Positions 6,612-43,837 of a stretch of DNA of 64,000 bases are shown one piece after another (position 1 is the first letter of the stretch; every line of letters begins with the position of its first letter). The DNA is from Candidatus Methylacidiphilales bacterium (GTDB lineage Bacteria; Verrucomicrobiota; Verrucomicrobiia; Methylacidiphilales; JAAUTS01), in the NCBI GenBank assembly GCA_028713655.1, contig JAQTNW010000017.1:1-64000 (forward strand), in the 5' to 3' direction. Both the position numbers and the translations under genes were made by a program. The notes under the pieces were generated by a model. The model ran no database searches and was not told the origin of the DNA. It saw only the letters and a program-made list of their open reading frames with translations.

Positions 6612-7709
6612 ATGACCCGGACGGAATATTATCTCATCCTGAACAGCCTGCGTCTTATCGGGCCCGTACGCGTCCGACGACTGCTGGATGCGTTTGGCTC
6701 TGTTGAAAACGTTTTTTCACAAAGCACCCGCGCACTGGCGTCAGTGGATGGGATTGGCAAGGCGGCCGCGGAATCCATCAAAAACTGGGAAAATGTTTTC
6801 AATCCGGAGGAGGAGTTGAACCGGGCCGGGGAACTGGGCGTGCAGGTCATTGACCGCGAAGATCCTGCGTATCCCGCACAACTGCTGGAAATTTATGACC
6901 CGCCGCTGGTGCTTTATTACAAGGGAGACCTCGAAGCCGCGAAACGCCGGGGCGTGGCCGTCGTCGGTGCCCGGCATACCTCGCATTACGGCCTCGAGAC
7001 GGCCAAAAAGCTGGCCTATCAAATCGCGTATGCGGGCTTGACTATAAACAGCGGGCTGGCCCGTGGCATCGACACCGCAGCCCATCAGGCCGCGCTGGCG
7101 GCGAAAGGCCGCACGATCGCTGTGCTGGGGTGTTCGCTGGATTTGATGTATCCGCCGGAAAACCGGGCGCTTGCGGAGGCAATTGTGGAAAAAGGCGGCC
7201 TGCTCCTTTCGGAGTTCCCCTTCGGCACGCCTCCCGACAAGCAGACGTTTCCCATGCGCAACCGGGTTGTCAGTGGCTTGAGCGGCGGGGTTCTGGTCGT
7301 TGAGGCTGGGGAAAGCAGTGGCGCGTTGATCACGGCGCGGATGGCCCTCGATCAAGGACGGCTGGTGTTTGCCGTGCCGGGGCGGATTGACAATCCGCAG
7401 GCCAAGGGCTGCCATCGTCTGATCAAGGACGGGGCCAAATTGGTTGAAGGAGTGGAGGACGTCTTGGCCGAGTTTGAATTTTTATTCCCAAAGAATGCAC
7501 TGGCCGAGCCCAGAAAGGCCGCTCCGGCGGATCTTTCGAGCGAAGAAAAGCAGCTTTTTGAACTGTTGACGACGGAGGAAGTCCATCTGGATGAACTGAT
7601 TAGAAAATGCGGGTTGCCATCCTCAACCGTGTCCTCTACGTTGCTCCGCTTGGAAATGAGGAAGCTGGTCCGCCAGCTTCCAGGCAAATATTTTATCAAG
7701 ACGGATTGA
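6612..7709 (+). CDS. dprA: DNA-processing protein DprA
   Basis: The 365-residue protein has the three-part DprA layout. A helix-hairpin-helix region lies at about 1-65, a Rossmann fold at 90-290, and a winged-helix domain at the end (from about 310, EKQLFELLTTEEVHLDELI). The Rossmann core shows GVAVVGARHTSHYG, SGLARGIDTAAHQAAL and FPMRNRVVSGLSGGVLVVEA, all family hallmarks. DprA protects incoming single-stranded DNA and loads RecA during transformation. It stands directly before a type IA topoisomerase gene (1 bp gap), the classic dprA-topA arrangement, and the same window carries comEC, cinA and recA. The start is ATG at 6612. Confidence 0.95.
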   Translation: MTRTEYYLILNSLRLIGPVRVRRLLDAFGSVENVFSQSTRALASVDGIGKAAAESIKNWENVFNPEEELNRAGELGVQVIDREDPAYPAQLLEIYDPPLVLYYKGDLEAAKRRGVAVVGARHTSHYGLETAKKLAYQIAYAGLTINSGLARGIDTAAHQAALAAKGRTIAVLGCSLDLMYPPENRALAEAIVEKGGLLLSEFPFGTPPDKQTFPMRNRVVSGLSGGVLVVEAGESSGALITARMALDQGRLVFAVPGRIDNPQAKGCHRLIKDGAKLVEGVEDVLAEFEFLFPKNALAEPRKAAPADLSSEEKQLFELLTTEEVHLDELIRKCGLPSSTVSSTLLRLEMRKLVRQLPGKYFIKTD

Positions 7710-35434: not shown

Positions 35435-36616
35435 ATGGAAGCGTGTGTGTATCCTGAAGATCTTGAAGAGTGGTGGGGAAGACAGGCTCTCAACCATTTT
35501 CATCTGCGCGATCTGAAGGTTGCGGCCCAAAAGCTGGCTCTGCAGGCCGGGAAATTAAGCGATGCCTTCACCACGGAACGATCTGCGAAATTTGCCGGTT
35601 GTTATGAAACCCCGTTGGATTGGATTACTTACGGCAATTTCTTTTTCCCCCAGACTTACGCCAGGACACAGCTTGCCCTGTCCGAGCTGACGCAATTCAG
35701 GGGCTGGAAGCCGGCAGGCAACCGCCCGCTGAAAATTCTGGATGTGGGGGGAGGCAGCGGCGCCGCATTGATCGCAGCCGTGGACACCCTGGCCGCTCAA
35801 TCGGAAAATCTGAATTTTGAGGCGACGTTGCTGGACCAATCCGAACTGGCATTGAAATATTATCGCGCGCTTTCGCGGGACCGCCGCAAACGTTCCCTTT
35901 TCAAAACGACGATCCAGCAAGCGAGCCTGGCCGAGCCGGAGAAATGGCAGAATACAGCCTCGAAATTCGATCTGATCCTCGTGAGCTTTTCGCTGGGCGA
36001 GGCTTTTCACGAAAAGCCCGGCACGGAAGTCTTGGCATGGTTGGATCGAATGGAAGACTTGCTGGAAGTGGGCGGAATTCTTCTGATTCTGGAACCTGCG
36101 TTGAAGGAAACCAGCGAGCGGTTGGAGCGCCTGCGCAATCACGCCGCCGCAACCCCGTCCTGGCATATCTGGGGGCCCTGCCTGCACCGCCATCATTGCC
36201 CGCTGCTGGAAGGAAAAAAATTCTGGTGCCATGAGGTCCGGCATTGGCAGGTGCCGCCCATGGTCAACCGCATCAACACCGGCCTCAAACGCTCCGTCTG
36301 GGACCTCAAGTTCAGCTTTCTCGCGCTTGGAAATACGGAGCCATCCCGCCACTACAACGGTTCGGAATATCTGCGTCTGCTCTCTCCCGTCGCCAAGGGG
36401 CACGGACGCCTGCTGTTGTCAGGCTGCAACGCCGCCGGCGCGCATGCAGAATACGACATCCTCAAACGCCATTTGTCGAAAGAGCAAACGGCCAAAATTG
36501 AAACTCTCGAGCGGGGTGATATTATTTCCCTGGGAACTTTGGAAACGCTCGGTGGCACGGGCCAGTTCCGCATCGTGAACCCGGATCAAATCCAGCGGGT
36601 CCTTTTGAATTCATGA
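35435..36616 (+). CDS. Rsm22-like SAM-dependent methyltransferase
   Basis: The 393-residue protein has a Rossmann methyltransferase core with SAM motif ILDVGGGSGAALIAAVDTLA (about 105-124). It then has a cluster CLHRHHCPLLEGKKFWCHEV (about 248-267) whose three Cys and two or three His resemble the Cys-rich metal site that marks the Rsm22 family (mitochondrial ribosomal small-subunit proteins and bacterial relatives). The target in bacteria is not known. It overlaps cinA by 4 bp, so it is the first gene of an rsm22-cinA-recA unit. Confidence 0.8.
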   Translation: MEACVYPEDLEEWWGRQALNHFHLRDLKVAAQKLALQAGKLSDAFTTERSAKFAGCYETPLDWITYGNFFFPQTYARTQLALSELTQFRGWKPAGNRPLKILDVGGGSGAALIAAVDTLAAQSENLNFEATLLDQSELALKYYRALSRDRRKRSLFKTTIQQASLAEPEKWQNTASKFDLILVSFSLGEAFHEKPGTEVLAWLDRMEDLLEVGGILLILEPALKETSERLERLRNHAAATPSWHIWGPCLHRHHCPLLEGKKFWCHEVRHWQVPPMVNRINTGLKRSVWDLKFSFLALGNTEPSRHYNGSEYLRLLSPVAKGHGRLLLSGCNAAGAHAEYDILKRHLSKEQTAKIETLERGDIISLGTLETLGGTGQFRIVNPDQIQRVLLNS

Positions 36617-37854
36617 TCGTCGAAGTCATCAACACCGGCAGTGAGCTGCTTCTGGGGCATACCCTCAACACGCATCTGGGTTATCTTTCCAGCCGGTTGC
36701 TGCCGCTGGGCCTGCAAATTCAACGGCAACAAACCGTGCCGGATGGTCCGGAGATCGAGCACGCCCTGCGCGAAGCGCTTTCCCGTTCCGAGATTATTAT
36801 TGTGACCGGCGGTTTGGGGCCGACTTCGGACGATCTCACGCGCGACATCGCGGCGCGTTTGTTCCAGGCCCCGCTTGAATTTCATCCGGAGATCCTGGAA
36901 ATAATCCTGGGTCGTTTTGCCCGGCGCAAGATATGTCCTCCCGACATGGTGCGAGTGCAGGCATTTGTTCCCAAAGGCGCCGCTGTTTTGCCCAATGAGC
37001 ATGGCACCGCGCCTGGGCTTTATTTTGAGCGTGACGGGAAACACATTTTTTTTCTGCCCGGTCCTCCGAACGAACTGCATCCCATGTTCGAGGATTCCGT
37101 CCTGCCGCGATTGCGCGGCCTGTCTGCCGGGCGGGCGGCTATATTGAGCAAAACCCTGCGCGTTTACGGACAGGGCGAATCCTTCGTGCAGGAAGCGGTT
37201 GAAAAGCCTGTCAAGAAACTGGGCGCTATCGAAGTTGGTTATTGCGCGCGCGCCGGGGAAGTGGATTTGAGGCTTATGGCGCAGGACCCGGATCTGTTGG
37301 CCCGCGCCGCCGATCTCGCCCGGCATTTGTTGGGGCACTCTGTTTATGCCGAGGATGAGGCCGGGATGGAAGAAACGGTGGTGCATCTTGCAACCCAAAA
37401 AAATTGTACGCTTGCCACAGCCGAGTCCTGTACCGGCGGGCTTGTTGCCCATCGCCTGACCAACGTGCCCGGCGCTTCAGCCGTGTTCCTGCGCGGATGG
37501 GTCACTTACAGCAACCTGTCCAAAATTGAGGAATTGGGGGTCCGCGAGGAAACGCTTCGAGCGCATGGGGCGGTCAGTGCTGAGACAGCTTCCGAAATGG
37601 CGCGGGGCGCCCTTCAAAAGAGCAAAGCGGCGCTGGCCGTGGCGGTGACGGGCATTGCCGGGCCCGGGGGAGGGACTGCTGAAAAGCCGGTGGGTACGAC
37701 TTTCTTTGCTTTGGCGCAGCTAAATTTTAACACAAATGATATAAAAGTTGCCACATACGCAAAACATCTTGTTCCCCAGCGTGAAGTCTTTAAAACTATG
37801 GCCTCGCAATTTGCGCTCGACCTCTTGCGGCGGGCCTTGCTTGCTCTAAACTGA
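36613..37854 (+). CDS. cinA: CinA: nicotinamide-nucleotide amidase/competence-induced protein
   Basis: The 413-residue protein has both CinA domains. The N-terminal MoCF-like part (1-170) opens [20 protein letters not shown] and has [14 protein letters not shown]. The C-terminal amidase (from about 250) has [20 protein letters not shown] and [20 protein letters not shown]. CinA hydrolyses NMN to NaMN and ADP-ribose-type pyrophosphates, recycling pyridine nucleotides. It is followed by recA after 19 bp, the classic cinA-recA pair of transformable bacteria. Its ATG overlaps the upstream stop. Confidence 0.95.
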
Positions 37855-37873
37855 ACAACAAACACATAAATCT

Positions 37874-38980
37874 ATGCCACCAAAAGCCGAAAAATCCGAA
37901 CCCAAAACAGAACCGAAAGCCGCCACAGCCGATAAGGACCGTAAAAATCTGGATCTCGCCATCCAGTCCATTGTCAAACAATACGGCGACAACTCCATCA
38001 TGCGCCTGGGGGACGAGCGGGCGAAGTTGAAAATCGATGTGATTCCGACCGGCGCGGTTGTGATTGATCGCGCGCTTGGCGTGGGCGGGTTCCCGAGAGG
38101 CCGCATCATTGAAATCTACGGGCCGGAATCTTCAGGTAAAACCACCCTCACGCTGACCGTGATTGCCCAGGCCCAGAAAATGGGCGGCACGGCCGCATTT
38201 ATCGACGTGGAGCACGCCCTGGATCCAAGCTACGCGCGCAAGCTTGGCGTCAACATGAACGAGCTGCTGGTTTCCCAGCCTGACTCGGGCGAGGAAGCCC
38301 TTACCATCACCGAAACCCTGGTACGCTCAAACGCGATTGATGTCATCGTGGTCGATTCCGTGGCCGCGCTGGTCACAAAATCCGAACTGGAAGGCCAGAT
38401 GGGCGACGCGGTCGTCGGCTCACAAGCGCGACTGATGAGTCAGGCCATGCGCAAGCTCACCGCGCTGATCAGCAGGGCCCGGACCATCTGTATTTTTACC
38501 AACCAGATGCGCGAAAAAATCGGCGTCATGTTTGGCAGTCCGGAAACCACGCCGGGAGGGAAGGCGCTCAAGTTTTATGCGAGCGTGCGCGTGGACATCC
38601 GCCGCATCGGCGCGATCAAGTCGGCTGACGGAACCGTTCTGGGGAATCGCACCCGCGTCAAGCTGGTCAAGAACAAGGTGGCCCCTCCGTTTACCGAGGC
38701 CGAATTCGACATCATGTATGACGAAGGCATCTCCAAGACCGGGTCGTTGCTGGATCTGGCCATCGAAATCAACATCCTGGAAAAGAAGGGCGCTTGGATT
38801 TCATTTGAAGGCACCCAGATTGCCAACGGCCGGGATGCCGCCAAGGAGGAGCTCAAGAAAAGCCCTGAGCTCTATGCCCGGATTGAAAAGGCCGTGCTGG
38901 CCAAACTCAACGAGGTTCCCCTGCCCATCGGCAAAGCGGATAAGGCGGATAAGCCGGATGGCGGCGCGGCGGCTGAATAA
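37874..38980 (+). CDS. recA: Recombinase A
   Basis: The 368-residue protein carries out strand exchange and triggers LexA cleavage. Walker A is [12 protein letters not shown], followed by [36 protein letters not shown] is the Walker B region and loop L1. [20 protein letters not shown] covers loop L2. The N-terminus has about 22 extra Lys/Glu/Pro-rich residues ([20 protein letters not shown]) and the tail is rich in Lys, Asp and Ala. It is third in the rsm22-cinA-recA unit. No LexA box was recognised in the short gap before it. Confidence 0.97.
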
Positions 38981-39783: not shown

Positions 39784-40584
39784 ATGGCTAACAAGGCAGT
39801 GCTAGCAGCTCTCACGATTGCCGGCTCCGACAACAGCGGCGGAGCGGGCATCCAGGCCGATCTCAAAACATTCACCACACTGGGCGTATTTGGCGCGGCA
39901 GCGGTTACTTGTGTCGTTGCGGAGCATCCCGGCCGCGTGGAATCCATTCATCCGGTGCCGCCAAAAGAGGTGGCCCGCCAGATAGCCCTGGTATTCGAAG
40001 CATTTCCGGTTGGCGCGGCCAAAACCGGCATGCTGTATTCGAAGGCGATCATCGAGGTGGTCGCCCGCGAGCTTGAACTGTTGCCCCGGAAGAAGCGCCC
40101 TCCGCTGGTGGTCGATCCGGTTATGGTGGCAAGCAGCGGCGCGCTTTTGATGAAAAAGGAAGCCGTGCGCGCTTTGATGAATCGGCTGCTGCCTCTCGCG
40201 GCATTGGTTACGCCGAATCTCAATGAGGCCGAGGTTTTGTTGGGGCGCAGGATTCGCAACGTGGATGAGGCTGAATCGGCGGCTGTCGATTGCTTCCAGA
40301 TTTGGGGGGTGCCCTTTTTGATCAAAGGCGGGCACTTGCAGGGGAGCGAGGCGGTGGATTTTTTATACGACGGCAGGAGGATGATGTCCCTGAACGCGGC
40401 CCGTGTTCCACGGGTGAAGACGCATGGCACCGGCTGCACCTATTCCAGCGCCATCACGGCCTGCCTTGCGCGGAGGCAGACGTTGTCGGAATCGGTTTGG
40501 ACCGGCAAGGAATTTGTCACGCGGGCCATCCGGGATCATTTCAGATTGGGGCGCTATCAGTTGTTAAACCAATTGCCGGAGTGA
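39784..40584 (+). CDS. thiD: Hydroxymethylpyrimidine/phosphomethylpyrimidine kinase
   Basis: The 266-residue ribokinase-fold enzyme phosphorylates HMP and then HMP-P for thiamine synthesis. The N-terminal TIAGSDNSGGAGIQADLKTF is the hallmark, with GVFGAAAVTCVVAEHP after it. VTPNLNEAEVLLGR and KTHGTGCTYSSAITACLARR (anion hole and catalytic region) follow. No other thi genes or TPP riboswitch are seen nearby. It precedes comEC by 18 bp and may share its transcript. Confidence 0.94.
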   Translation: MANKAVLAALTIAGSDNSGGAGIQADLKTFTTLGVFGAAAVTCVVAEHPGRVESIHPVPPKEVARQIALVFEAFPVGAAKTGMLYSKAIIEVVARELELLPRKKRPPLVVDPVMVASSGALLMKKEAVRALMNRLLPLAALVTPNLNEAEVLLGRRIRNVDEAESAAVDCFQIWGVPFLIKGGHLQGSEAVDFLYDGRRMMSLNAARVPRVKTHGTGCTYSSAITACLARRQTLSESVWTGKEFVTRAIRDHFRLGRYQLLNQLPE

Positions 40585-40602: not shown

Positions 40603-42906
40603 ATGAAAGAACATTCGCAGCAAGCCGGAGCGTTGTTCTGGCTGGGGTTGGCCGCTTGCGCCGGAGTGTTTGCAGGCCGGGCGTGGCTGATGCCACCGTG
40701 GATTATCCCCGTCCTGTTTCTTTTCAGCGCCGGGCTTGTGCTTGGGACGAAAAAATGGCCCAGAGCCGTTTTCGCATTGTGCGCGGCGTTTTTTGCCTTT
40801 GCCTGTTACAGCAACGCGTTGTTGCATTATTATCCGCCGGAACACCTGCTGCGCACGATTGGCGAGGCGGGACAAACACAAAGGCTGAGGCTGTTGATTG
40901 CCGATGAACCCGGGAAAACATCCGACTCAAGCGGGCGGGCCCGCTGTGATTTTCTTGCGGAAGCCCGGGAGGCTTGGTCGGAAGCGGGTTGGCAAAAAAT
41001 TTCCGGAAAAATCCGGGTGCGGATTTCCGGCGCCCCGATGCCGGACTTGCATTACGGCGATGTGGTGGAAACGGCGGGTTATGTCCGGTTCCCGTCAAGC
41101 CCCCGTAATCCCGGCGAATTTGATCTTCGCTCCTACCTGGCCGCAAAGAACATTTATTACGAGTGCCGTGCCGATGCCGGTGAGACGGTGGTGCTGCGCA
41201 GGGGCGAAGGACGGTGGCTGGAGGTGCAGGCGTACCGGTTGAGGGAACACATGTTGCGGACACTCGGCATCGGGCTTCAGGATGACCCGCAAATCTCCGC
41301 CCTGATGGCGGGAATGCTGTTTGGTTATCGCGACGGGATTGCGGAGGAAGTGACGGAGGCGTTTCGCAATACCGGGACGCTGCATTTGTTTGCCGTCAGC
41401 GGGCAAAATGTGGCGGAGATCCTCGGAATTTTGCTGGTGACTTTGCAACTGACCGGCGTGGTAAAGTGGCGCTACGCGTGGCTGGCATTGCCCGCGTTGT
41501 TGGTCTTTTGCCTGGCCACCGGGATGCAGGCCAGCGCGGCGCGCGCTTTCGTCATGGCCGCCTTTATTCTGGCGGGATGGGCCATCTGCCGTCCCGTGCA
41601 GGTGTTGAATTTGCTGGGGGCGGCGGCCTTGTTTCTGTTGGTCTGGGAGCCGAGGCAGATGTTCGACTGCGGGTTTCAACTTTCATTTCTGGCGGTGATG
41701 GGCCTGGCAACTGGCAGTCGCCCCGTGTCTTTATGGTGTTACCAGTGGGGAAAGCCGGATCCCTGGATTCCGAAGCGTCTGCTTTCCCGTTCGCGGAAGC
41801 TGATGGACCGGATTTACTACGGAGTTTGCGGGCTTGCGGCAGCTTCAATTTCGGCCTGGGTGGCCACACTCTGGATTTTGATCCTGCAATTTCATGTGCT
41901 GTCGCCTGTGACCCTGCTGGCGAACCTGGTGGTGGTTCCGTTGGCGGGACTGGTTGTAACGGTGGCGACGCTGTCTGTTTTTTGCGGATGGATATGGACG
42001 GGAATTTCCCTGCTCTTGAACCAGGTAAACTGGCTGTTGCTTAAGGCCATCCTGTGTTGCGTCATGTTGCTGTCAAAAGTGCCCGGCGGTTCTTTTTATG
42101 TCGGTTGGGATTCTCCCCCGCAGGAGCACGCCCGGTTTACTTTTTTCCAGGCCGGCCAGGCGGCGCCGGGTTTGTTGGAGTACGCCGGCAGGCGATGGCT
42201 GATTGATACCGGAACGGAGCAGGCTTGGAAATATACATTGGATCCCTGCCGCCGCAGCTTGGGTGTGAACCGGTTGGATGGCTTGATTTTGACGCAGGAC
42301 GCCACCGCACATCTGGGTGGAGCGCCGGATCTGGCCCGGCATCTGCCGGTGCAGTTTTGGGTGGAAAGCGGATACCAGAGCCGGGCGGCGGCGCAGCATC
42401 GATTGTTGGATACATTACAACGGATGGGATTGGGAAAGCGCTTCTGGCGGCGTGGTGAAGTGCATGATCTGGCGGAACATTTGCGGGTACGGGTACTCTG
42501 GCCGCCGGGCTCGGAAACTTTTCCCCGGCAGGAGGACAACGGGTTGGTGTTGCAGTTTTGCATGCCTGGGGGCCGGCTGCTCTATGCCGGTGATATTTCG
42601 GAGGAGGTGGAAGGCCGACTTGCGGCGGAGGAACCGGATTTGAGGTCCGATTGCCTGGTGGAAGGGGAGCATTCAGCCGTTCGGAATCTGTCCCGGACCT
42701 GGCTCGAAAAAGTGCATCCGCGTTATGTGGTGCGTCCGGCCCGCGGTTACCAGCCTGACCGTTCCCTGACGCCCGATTTCTGGGAACGTGCGTCCGCAGG
42801 GGGGATCGAGGTGTTGCGCATGGAAAAAACCGGTGCGGTTTTCTTTGAAATTCAGCCGGAAGGCTGCCATATTGCCCCCTATCTTTGGGAGACCGGTTGG
42901 AAATAG
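40603..42906 (+). CDS. comEC: ComEC/Rec2-type DNA uptake protein with a degenerate metallo-beta-lactamase domain
   Basis: The 767-residue protein has N-terminal membrane segments, a DUF4131-like soluble part, and the Competence channel domain (about 220-490: LMAGMLFGYRDGIAEEVTEA, LHLFAVSGQNVAEILGILLV). The C-terminal domain aligns with the ComEC metallo-beta-lactamase domain but is altered. Where DVGQGDA is expected it reads QAGQAAP (516-522), and where THxDxDHxGG is expected it reads TQDATAHLGG (564-573), so three metal ligands are gone. The fold (LIDTGTE; YAGDISEEVE) is kept. It probably forms the transport channel while the nuclease is inactive. GGGGAG precedes the ATG by 6 nt. Confidence 0.9.
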   Translation: MKEHSQQAGALFWLGLAACAGVFAGRAWLMPPWIIPVLFLFSAGLVLGTKKWPRAVFALCAAFFAFACYSNALLHYYPPEHLLRTIGEAGQTQRLRLLIADEPGKTSDSSGRARCDFLAEAREAWSEAGWQKISGKIRVRISGAPMPDLHYGDVVETAGYVRFPSSPRNPGEFDLRSYLAAKNIYYECRADAGETVVLRRGEGRWLEVQAYRLREHMLRTLGIGLQDDPQISALMAGMLFGYRDGIAEEVTEAFRNTGTLHLFAVSGQNVAEILGILLVTLQLTGVVKWRYAWLALPALLVFCLATGMQASAARAFVMAAFILAGWAICRPVQVLNLLGAAALFLLVWEPRQMFDCGFQLSFLAVMGLATGSRPVSLWCYQWGKPDPWIPKRLLSRSRKLMDRIYYGVCGLAAASISAWVATLWILILQFHVLSPVTLLANLVVVPLAGLVVTVATLSVFCGWIWTGISLLLNQVNWLLLKAILCCVMLLSKVPGGSFYVGWDSPPQEHARFTFFQAGQAAPGLLEYAGRRWLIDTGTEQAWKYTLDPCRRSLGVNRLDGLILTQDATAHLGGAPDLARHLPVQFWVESGYQSRAAAQHRLLDTLQRMGLGKRFWRRGEVHDLAEHLRVRVLWPPGSETFPRQEDNGLVLQFCMPGGRLLYAGDISEEVEGRLAAEEPDLRSDCLVEGEHSAVRNLSRTWLEKVHPRYVVRPARGYQPDRSLTPDFWERASAGGIEVLRMEKTGAVFFEIQPEGCHIAPYLWETGWK

Positions 42907-42928
42907 TGGAAAGGCTTGTGGGATTGCG

Positions 42929-43837
42929 ATGCGTGCGAAGCTGATATCGGGGACGGAAAAATGGGGCTTTGAGCAGCCAAGGGTTACTCTTGGGCGTTCC
43001 AGCCGCTGTGATATTAATGTGTCAGATCCTTCCGCCTCGCGCGTTCATGTCCAACTGAGGTATGATCTTTTGGGCCGTTACATGGTCATGGATTGCGGCA
43101 GCCGCAATGGGACCCTGTTGAATAACGAGCTTATTTTGGGGCCCACACTTCTCAAAAACGACGACGTGATCCGCATCGGCCAGCAGGAATTCATTTTTCA
43201 AGGCAATACCGGGTTGCCTGAATCCGGTACCGGAAAAATCGGCGCCAAGGTCGAAGCGCTTGAAAAATTCCCCATGATCATGGTGGCGGTCCGCTTGAGA
43301 GAGGATTCCTCGGCCCTGGTGCGCGAGCCATTGGCGTATAGCAATGTGTTTGGCCAATGGTTTGACGCCCATGAAAAATCGGTGGTAAAACATGAGGGCA
43401 TTTTTGACAGCATCGATCAACGCGGTTTTTTCGCCTACTGGCCGACCGAGGAAAAAATTGTGCGGGAATCCATGAAGCAGGTTCTGGCCTTTGTGAAGGA
43501 AAGCCGGAAAACGACGGCCCGGCTTGTTGAGGAATTGCGCGAAGCCATTCCAGGCGCCCAATCGCAGCCGTTTCTTGCCTCGGGCATCGGGCTTCATTTT
43601 GGCATTGGGCACGGACGCAGAATGTCCAGCGGCGAGGCTGAATATTACCTGATGTGCGGCGAGGATGTGGAACTGGCGATTGACCTGTCATCGAAGGCGA
43701 TTCAGAACGTGGACTTGGTGGTCTGCGATGAGAAAACCCAATCCATGCTGCCGGACCTTTCCCTTGCAACGCCGTTTGTGATGGGCGTGGTGGGCCCGCG
43801 CCGCCAGGCCATGCTGCTTCACAAATTGAAGATTTGA
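42929..43837 (+). CDS. FHA-domain protein with a degenerate class III cyclase-like domain
   Basis: From ATG 42929 the protein has 302 residues. Residues 20-95 form an FHA domain that would bind phosphothreonine: RVTLGRSSRCDINVSDPSAS then RVHVQL and DCGSRNGTLLNN. From about 110 to the end the pattern follows a class III nucleotide cyclase: MIMVAVRLRED (for FxDIRGF), KHEGIFDSIDQRGFFAYWPT (for HGGxxDKFxGDGxMAxF), and GIGLHFGIGHGRRMS (for GIGIHxG). Both metal aspartates are missing, so catalysis is not expected. It starts 22 bp after comEC and ends 9 bp from the convergent zwf. A longer upstream frame is inside comEC. Confidence 0.85.
   Translation: MRAKLISGTEKWGFEQPRVTLGRSSRCDINVSDPSASRVHVQLRYDLLGRYMVMDCGSRNGTLLNNELILGPTLLKNDDVIRIGQQEFIFQGNTGLPESGTGKIGAKVEALEKFPMIMVAVRLREDSSALVREPLAYSNVFGQWFDAHEKSVVKHEGIFDSIDQRGFFAYWPTEEKIVRESMKQVLAFVKESRKTTARLVEELREAIPGAQSQPFLASGIGLHFGIGHGRRMSSGEAEYYLMCGEDVELAIDLSSKAIQNVDLVVCDEKTQSMLPDLSLATPFVMGVVGPRRQAMLLHKLKI

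Follow-up and report, generated by a model that had tools for sequence, protein, structure and literature searches.

A ComEC with a predicted catalytically dead nuclease domain, maintained by selection, in a Methylacidiphilales-like order of Verrucomicrobiota

Results and discussion

The ComEC protein encoded in the window, by which we mean the whole stretch of 64,000 nucleotides analysed here, ends in a metallo-β-lactamase (MBL) domain that we interpret, with moderate confidence, as a folded pseudo-nuclease that selection has retained for a non-catalytic function, either structural or in guiding DNA. According to this interpretation, the MBL domain could no longer hold two Mn ions or use a general base, and would instead act as a structural lid or as a DNA guide or wedge next to the OB fold and the mouth of the channel. 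Pulling and displacement would then separate the strands during import, or else another nuclease would remove the other strand.

The comEC gene and its domains

The comEC gene is one open frame (40603..42906, +) coding for 767 amino acids in the usual three-domain architecture. A DUF4131/OB-fold region (residues 30-194; 40690..41184, +; Pfam PF13567, 92.1 bits with a cut-off of 31.6) is followed by the Competence or channel domain (residues 238-503; 41314..42111, +; PF03772, 168.3 bits with a cut-off of 23) and by the MBL-fold C-terminal domain, in which the catalytic residues are gone (residues 507-767; 42121..42903, +; delimited by the structure model and its PDB match). The Pfam Lactamase_B model matches this last domain weakly, at residues 523-673 with 24.2 bits, just above the cut-off of 22.7. 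Among the NCBIfam models, the domain model TIGR00360 scored above its cut-off, and the equivalog model TIGR00361 reached 121.1 bits against a cut-off of 190.05. The genome holds a single PF03772 match, which makes comEC the sole Competence-domain gene found and rules out a second ComEC. A thiD-like gene (39784..40584, +) lies directly upstream, and the neighbour comparison showed the same adjacency in the sister family f60 and in family f63. Directly downstream, an FHA-domain protein (42788-43837, +) overlaps the end of comEC in its longest reading; its only other Pfam match above the reporting limit is to the related YscD-type domain.

Loss of the metal ligands

The Mn-coordinating residues of Moorella glycerini ComEC are H598, D600, D602, H603 and D700 (PMC12455585). 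We aligned the window ComEC with the Moorella domain, whose reference motifs read STHPDADHIGG and LLSADI in the alignment. Two of the five ligands are kept (H603 as H570 and D700 as D664), and H598, D600 and D602 are replaced by Q565, A567 and A569, which bears out the original prediction that a His and two Asp of the active site are missing. The letters and positions given there also held: QAGQAAP stands in place of DVGQGDA at the motif I position (residues 516-522; 42148..42168, +), and TQDATAHLGG in place of THPDADHIGG, or THxDxDHxGG in its general form, at the motif II position (residues 564-573; 42292..42321, +). Other marks of the fold stay, as had likewise been noticed, namely LIDTGT at residues 533-538 and YAGDISEE at the motif IV position (residues 661-668; 42583..42606, +), which contains the bridging Asp, D664. 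At the motif V position, the PHHGS region, the sequence is LVEGEHSA (residues 685-692; 42655..42678, +; register within one residue), in which PHHGS reads GEHSA and the HHGS substrate motif is absent. We rejected chance and a frame or reading error as the source of these changes, because comEC is one open frame and the loss is common to its relatives.

Single ligand mutants of the Moorella enzyme are virtually inactive, with D600A about 5-fold down, and analogous ligand changes in Legionella abolish transformation (PMC12455585). The DADA mutant of Moorella thermoacetica ComEC, a double Asp-to-Ala replacement, shows no Mn stabilisation and has lost phosphodiesterase activity with the fold kept (PMC8579336). 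Both motif II Asp residues are Ala in the natural protein studied here (A567 and A569), the same double change as in that mutant. Given the lost ligands together with the replacement known from the inactive DADA mutant, the C-terminal domain is very probably no nuclease, and we predict with very high confidence that it is catalytically dead. Three PDB chains (9vc6, 9vc9 and 9vcb) carry an HxAxAH version of motif II (THGAEAH, SHGANAH and SHSANAH, respectively) and are probably engineered mutants of the DADA type.

It could be argued that the domain is still a metalloenzyme, as the window ComEC still has H570, D664 and H690, which could in principle hold one metal. These residues, however, are not conserved in the family. 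No His or Cys of the MBL domain is conserved across the window's own family f1, its sister family f60 and family f63, which led us to discard a rebuilt metal site, one of the outcomes that the original prediction had named as fatal to it; the only well-conserved acids across the three families are E588, E670 and D719. A metal motif elsewhere in the protein, the other such outcome, was also discarded, since a pattern scan of all 767 residues found no HxHxDH, HxDxDH or HH. A domain retaining one functional metal seems to us very improbable, the geometry of the metal site having been judged from sequence.

Predicted fold of the MBL domain

The full-length AlphaFold model of ComEC had a mean pLDDT of 90.6 and a pTM of 0.87, and the model of the MBL domain (residues 498-767) a pLDDT of 93.4 and a pTM of 0.92. 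The top PDB match of the domain model was the MBL domain of Moorella glycerini ComEC (9ic4; E-value of 1.5e-19, TM-score of 0.83, 26% identity). The structural modelling that had been proposed as a check thus predicts that the MBL fold is intact despite the ligand loss. The matches listed for a structure search with the full-length ComEC were isolated MBL proteins, and the full-length ComEC entries, which we found by sequence, were not among them.

Spread of the loss across Verrucomicrobiota

We searched 241 genomes from across the phylum and 62 genomes of the order for ComEC. The order is Methylacidiphilales-like, and strain LP2A and MAGs of "Verrucomicrobia subdivision 6" are among its named ComEC matches. 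The resulting sample of 212 ComECs comprised 132 sequences from those genomes and 80 organism-named loci from a second collection; 195 of the 212 were distinct over the last 200 residues. In the 197 C-terminal regions that could be counted, none of the ligands was kept in 83, one in 24, two in 14, three in 9, four in 66 and all five in 1, which are not phylum-wide rates because the 80 named loci were picked by similarity to this order, and in which the ligand columns of strongly diverged sequences may be misaligned. All 66 four-ligand ComECs lack D602, the proposed general base. A few sequences have D602 but not H598 (family f18), which suggests several independent losses and not one.

The HxDxDH pattern was found in 1 of the 212 Verrucomicrobiota ComECs, and HHGS/T also in 1. 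The same patterns applied to ten control ComECs from other phyla (E. coli, Klebsiella, Proteus, Aeromonas, Xanthomonas, Acinetobacter, Bacillus, Collinsella, Magnetococcus and Enterococcus) recovered HxDxDH in 9/10, the exception being Magnetococcus with HLQSDH, and HHGS in 10/10; these controls were drawn from E. coli and plasmid-labelled records, with Planctomycetota and Chlamydiota not in the sample. The only sampled Verrucomicrobiota ComEC with all five ligands, and the one with HxDxDH, is encoded at locus L204 (3147-5546, +), where motif II reads THGDIDHIGE and HHGS is altered.

In the FastTree tree of the channel domain (n=132), all 51 ComECs of the order formed one supported clade, no member of which keeps more than two ligands, and all of which were scored dead save one contig fragment without the region. 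In the five same-family genomes whose site can be read, none of the five ligands is left, not even those kept by the window ComEC. Elsewhere in the phylum, four-ligand, dead, scarcely recognisable and fully absent MBL domains alternate; some members of family f2 have no recognisable domain, and it is missing in f6, f4, f11, f13, f14 and others. In the aligned sequences, the ligand loss is confirmed as clade-wide, covering the order and, in a graded form, nearly the phylum.

A few loci in the sample deserve separate mention. Locus L147 (JASGCJ010000037.1) is labelled Candidatus Paceibacterota, and its ComEC is 38% identical to the query and resembles subdivision 6 ComECs; it is probably a mis-binned contig. 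In one same-family genome (G248:C137, L079), comEC is split into frames by one TGA, and the comEC of G121:C1 has two in-frame TAG codons. Each of these broken genes may be a pseudogene, an assembly error or a case of recoding.

Selection on the predicted inactive domain

We compared 15 close pairs from the order and obtained ω values well below 1 in all three ComEC domains (0.11-0.39 for the C-terminal domain and 0.03-0.32 for the channel). The dead MBL domain is maintained by selection, a conclusion that we draw with high confidence. The ratio of MBL to channel divergence was 1.31 in f1/f60, within the 0.92-1.43 given by four-ligand families. Families f62 and f63 had higher ratios (1.56 and 2.47), and as their MBL domain diverges faster than the channel, it is under a partly relaxed constraint in these families. 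Four-ligand relatives show full conservation in the columns of H598, D600, H603 and D700, as compared with a conservation of 0.50-0.74 in f1/f60/f63, in which W542, W586, G590, N695, L696, W700, R711, D719, S721 and L722 are invariant. The channel is strongly conserved. Conservation has moved off the metal site to other residues, in the manner of a pseudo-enzyme under changed constraint. Among the three readings that the original prediction offered, namely degradation by another enzyme, entry of double-stranded DNA or a domain that has become structural, the last fits best, with its fold predicted to be intact and under purifying selection.

Competence genes in the genome

The window also contains dprA, a competence and recombination gene (6612..7709, +; PF02481, 266 bits), cinA (36613..37854, +; PF02464) and recA (37874..38980, +; recognised from the translated sequence). 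Seven T2SSE-family ATPases, pilus and secretion types counted together, were matched in the genome outside the window. Such ATPases typically serve type IV pili and type II secretion. No ComEA scored over the cut-off in the assembly, which comprises 90 contigs at 95% completeness; two weak HHH_3 matches were rejected as ComEA and read as GspK-like and DnaE-like proteins. We regard it as possible, if somewhat doubtful, that the cell actually performs natural transformation.

One explanation would be that the clade no longer transforms, that ComEC has decayed or been repurposed in the membrane, and that the MBL domain is drifting to deletion. The missing ComEA is in line with this explanation, as are the same-family relatives with more ligands gone and the families with an unrecognisable or absent domain. 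The low ω in all three domains and the strong conservation of the channel speak against it, as does the presence of DprA and of the pilus or secretion ATPases, and the absence of ComEA may reflect the incomplete assembly or a different receptor. We consider such a loss of transformation quite unlikely.

Fate of the second strand

Since almost every sampled relative in the phylum shows the ligand loss in some form, the second strand is probably handled differently or the channel is used otherwise. What happens to this strand in bacteria without a working ComEC nuclease has been posed as an open question (PMC8579336). The original prediction had suggested that another enzyme degrades it, possibly one encoded beside the com genes. 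In such a division of labour, a separate secreted nuclease would have taken over the degradation of the strand, after the manner of EndA in Streptococcus pneumoniae, and the dead domain would persist as a scaffold. At the level of the phylum, there are indications of this kind. Proteins of the EndA type (PF01223) occur in 93/241 genomes, more often in those whose ComEC is without an MBL domain (46/78 against 42/146 genomes; family-level p of 0.0035, with MBL presence judged in most cases by the length of the open frame and relatedness allowed for only through counts of families). This enrichment suggests a division of labour in some Verrucomicrobiota lineages. A genome of the sister family f60 (G245) encodes a 310-residue SNase with a C-terminal ComEA-like HhH and an apparent signal peptide (L228:1156-2085, +), and long matches to the fusion were found in several further families of the phylum; it is a candidate DNA-receptor nuclease. 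The genome of the window itself, however, gave no support to the suggestion. At 95% completeness, it contains no match to EndA-type PF01223, and no SNase, endonuclease I or relative of the SNase-HhH fusion was found in it; no nuclease adjoins comEC, either among the scanned window genes or in the neighbour comparison. We also considered a detached, active MBL of the ComEC type and rejected it, since the six remaining PF00753 proteins, which retain HxHxDH, resemble other hydrolases on visual inspection (GloB-, YycJ-, RNase J-, PhnP- and UlaG-like). For the window ComEC, a nuclease that has taken over the work seems rather unlikely.

A possible role in guiding DNA

The reading of the MBL domain as a selected, non-catalytic pseudo-nuclease leaves its job to be specified, and we hold a DNA-guide or wedge role to be an even bet. 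Loop 2 of Legionella ComEC was proposed to melt the duplex and to guide the strands (PMC12455585). The segment aligned with this proposed strand-separating pin is RPARGYQPDRSL (residues 711-722; 42733..42768, +), in which R711, D719, S721 and L722 are the residues invariant in f1/f60/f63, and two aromatics essential in Legionella are not kept. The loss of these pin-loop aromatics weakens the wedge idea to a mere suggestion. Moreover, with neither ComEA nor a known transformation nuclease found in the genome, DNA import itself is only putative. The broadest version of this idea, namely that nearly the whole of Verrucomicrobiota imports DNA through a ComEC with a nuclease naturally disabled by the loss of D602 or of more ligands, whose dead domain is a strand-separating guide, and that the strand is displaced and not degraded by ComEC, is an unlikely proposition.

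Comparison with known ComEC systems

In a phylum that shows all stages, from four ligands through none to an absent domain, the catalytic and the structural role of the MBL domain can be told apart, and Verrucomicrobiota ComECs offer natural test proteins, as selection still acts on the dead versions. Counts of ComECs in which Pfam reports Lactamase_B as present overstate the number of nuclease ComECs. We found no description of ligand loss in Verrucomicrobiota ComEC in the literature searched, outside which most subscription journals lie.

The window ComEC shares its three domains and the MBL fold with the active ComECs of Moorella, Bacillus subtilis and Legionella (TM-score of 0.83 to 9ic4 of Moorella), and differs from them in the loss of three of the five metal ligands and of HHGS, with predicted inactivity. 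It shares the replacement of both motif II Asp by Ala with the DADA laboratory mutant, made in Moorella thermoacetica and B. subtilis (PMC8579336), but it is natural, has further losses (His to Gln, and a changed HHGS), and its gene has been kept by the lineage. About half of all ComECs have no MBL domain. Like the Helicobacter pylori type of ComEC without this domain, the window ComEC has no working nuclease of its own by prediction and no EndA was found; unlike that type, it still has a folded MBL domain under selection. The precedent is Streptococcus pneumoniae, in which a full-length ComEC has naturally lost the metal ligands of its MBL domain and EndA does the work (PMC5031224, PMC8579336). 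The natural ligand loss in a full-length MBL domain is the same, whereas EndA is present in S. pneumoniae and no PF01223 match was found in the 95% complete genome of the window, and the loss here is order-wide and graded across the phylum. Natural ligand loss was thus already known from S. pneumoniae, and what is new is an unusually broad, clade-wide pseudo-nuclease ComEC that is still under selection.
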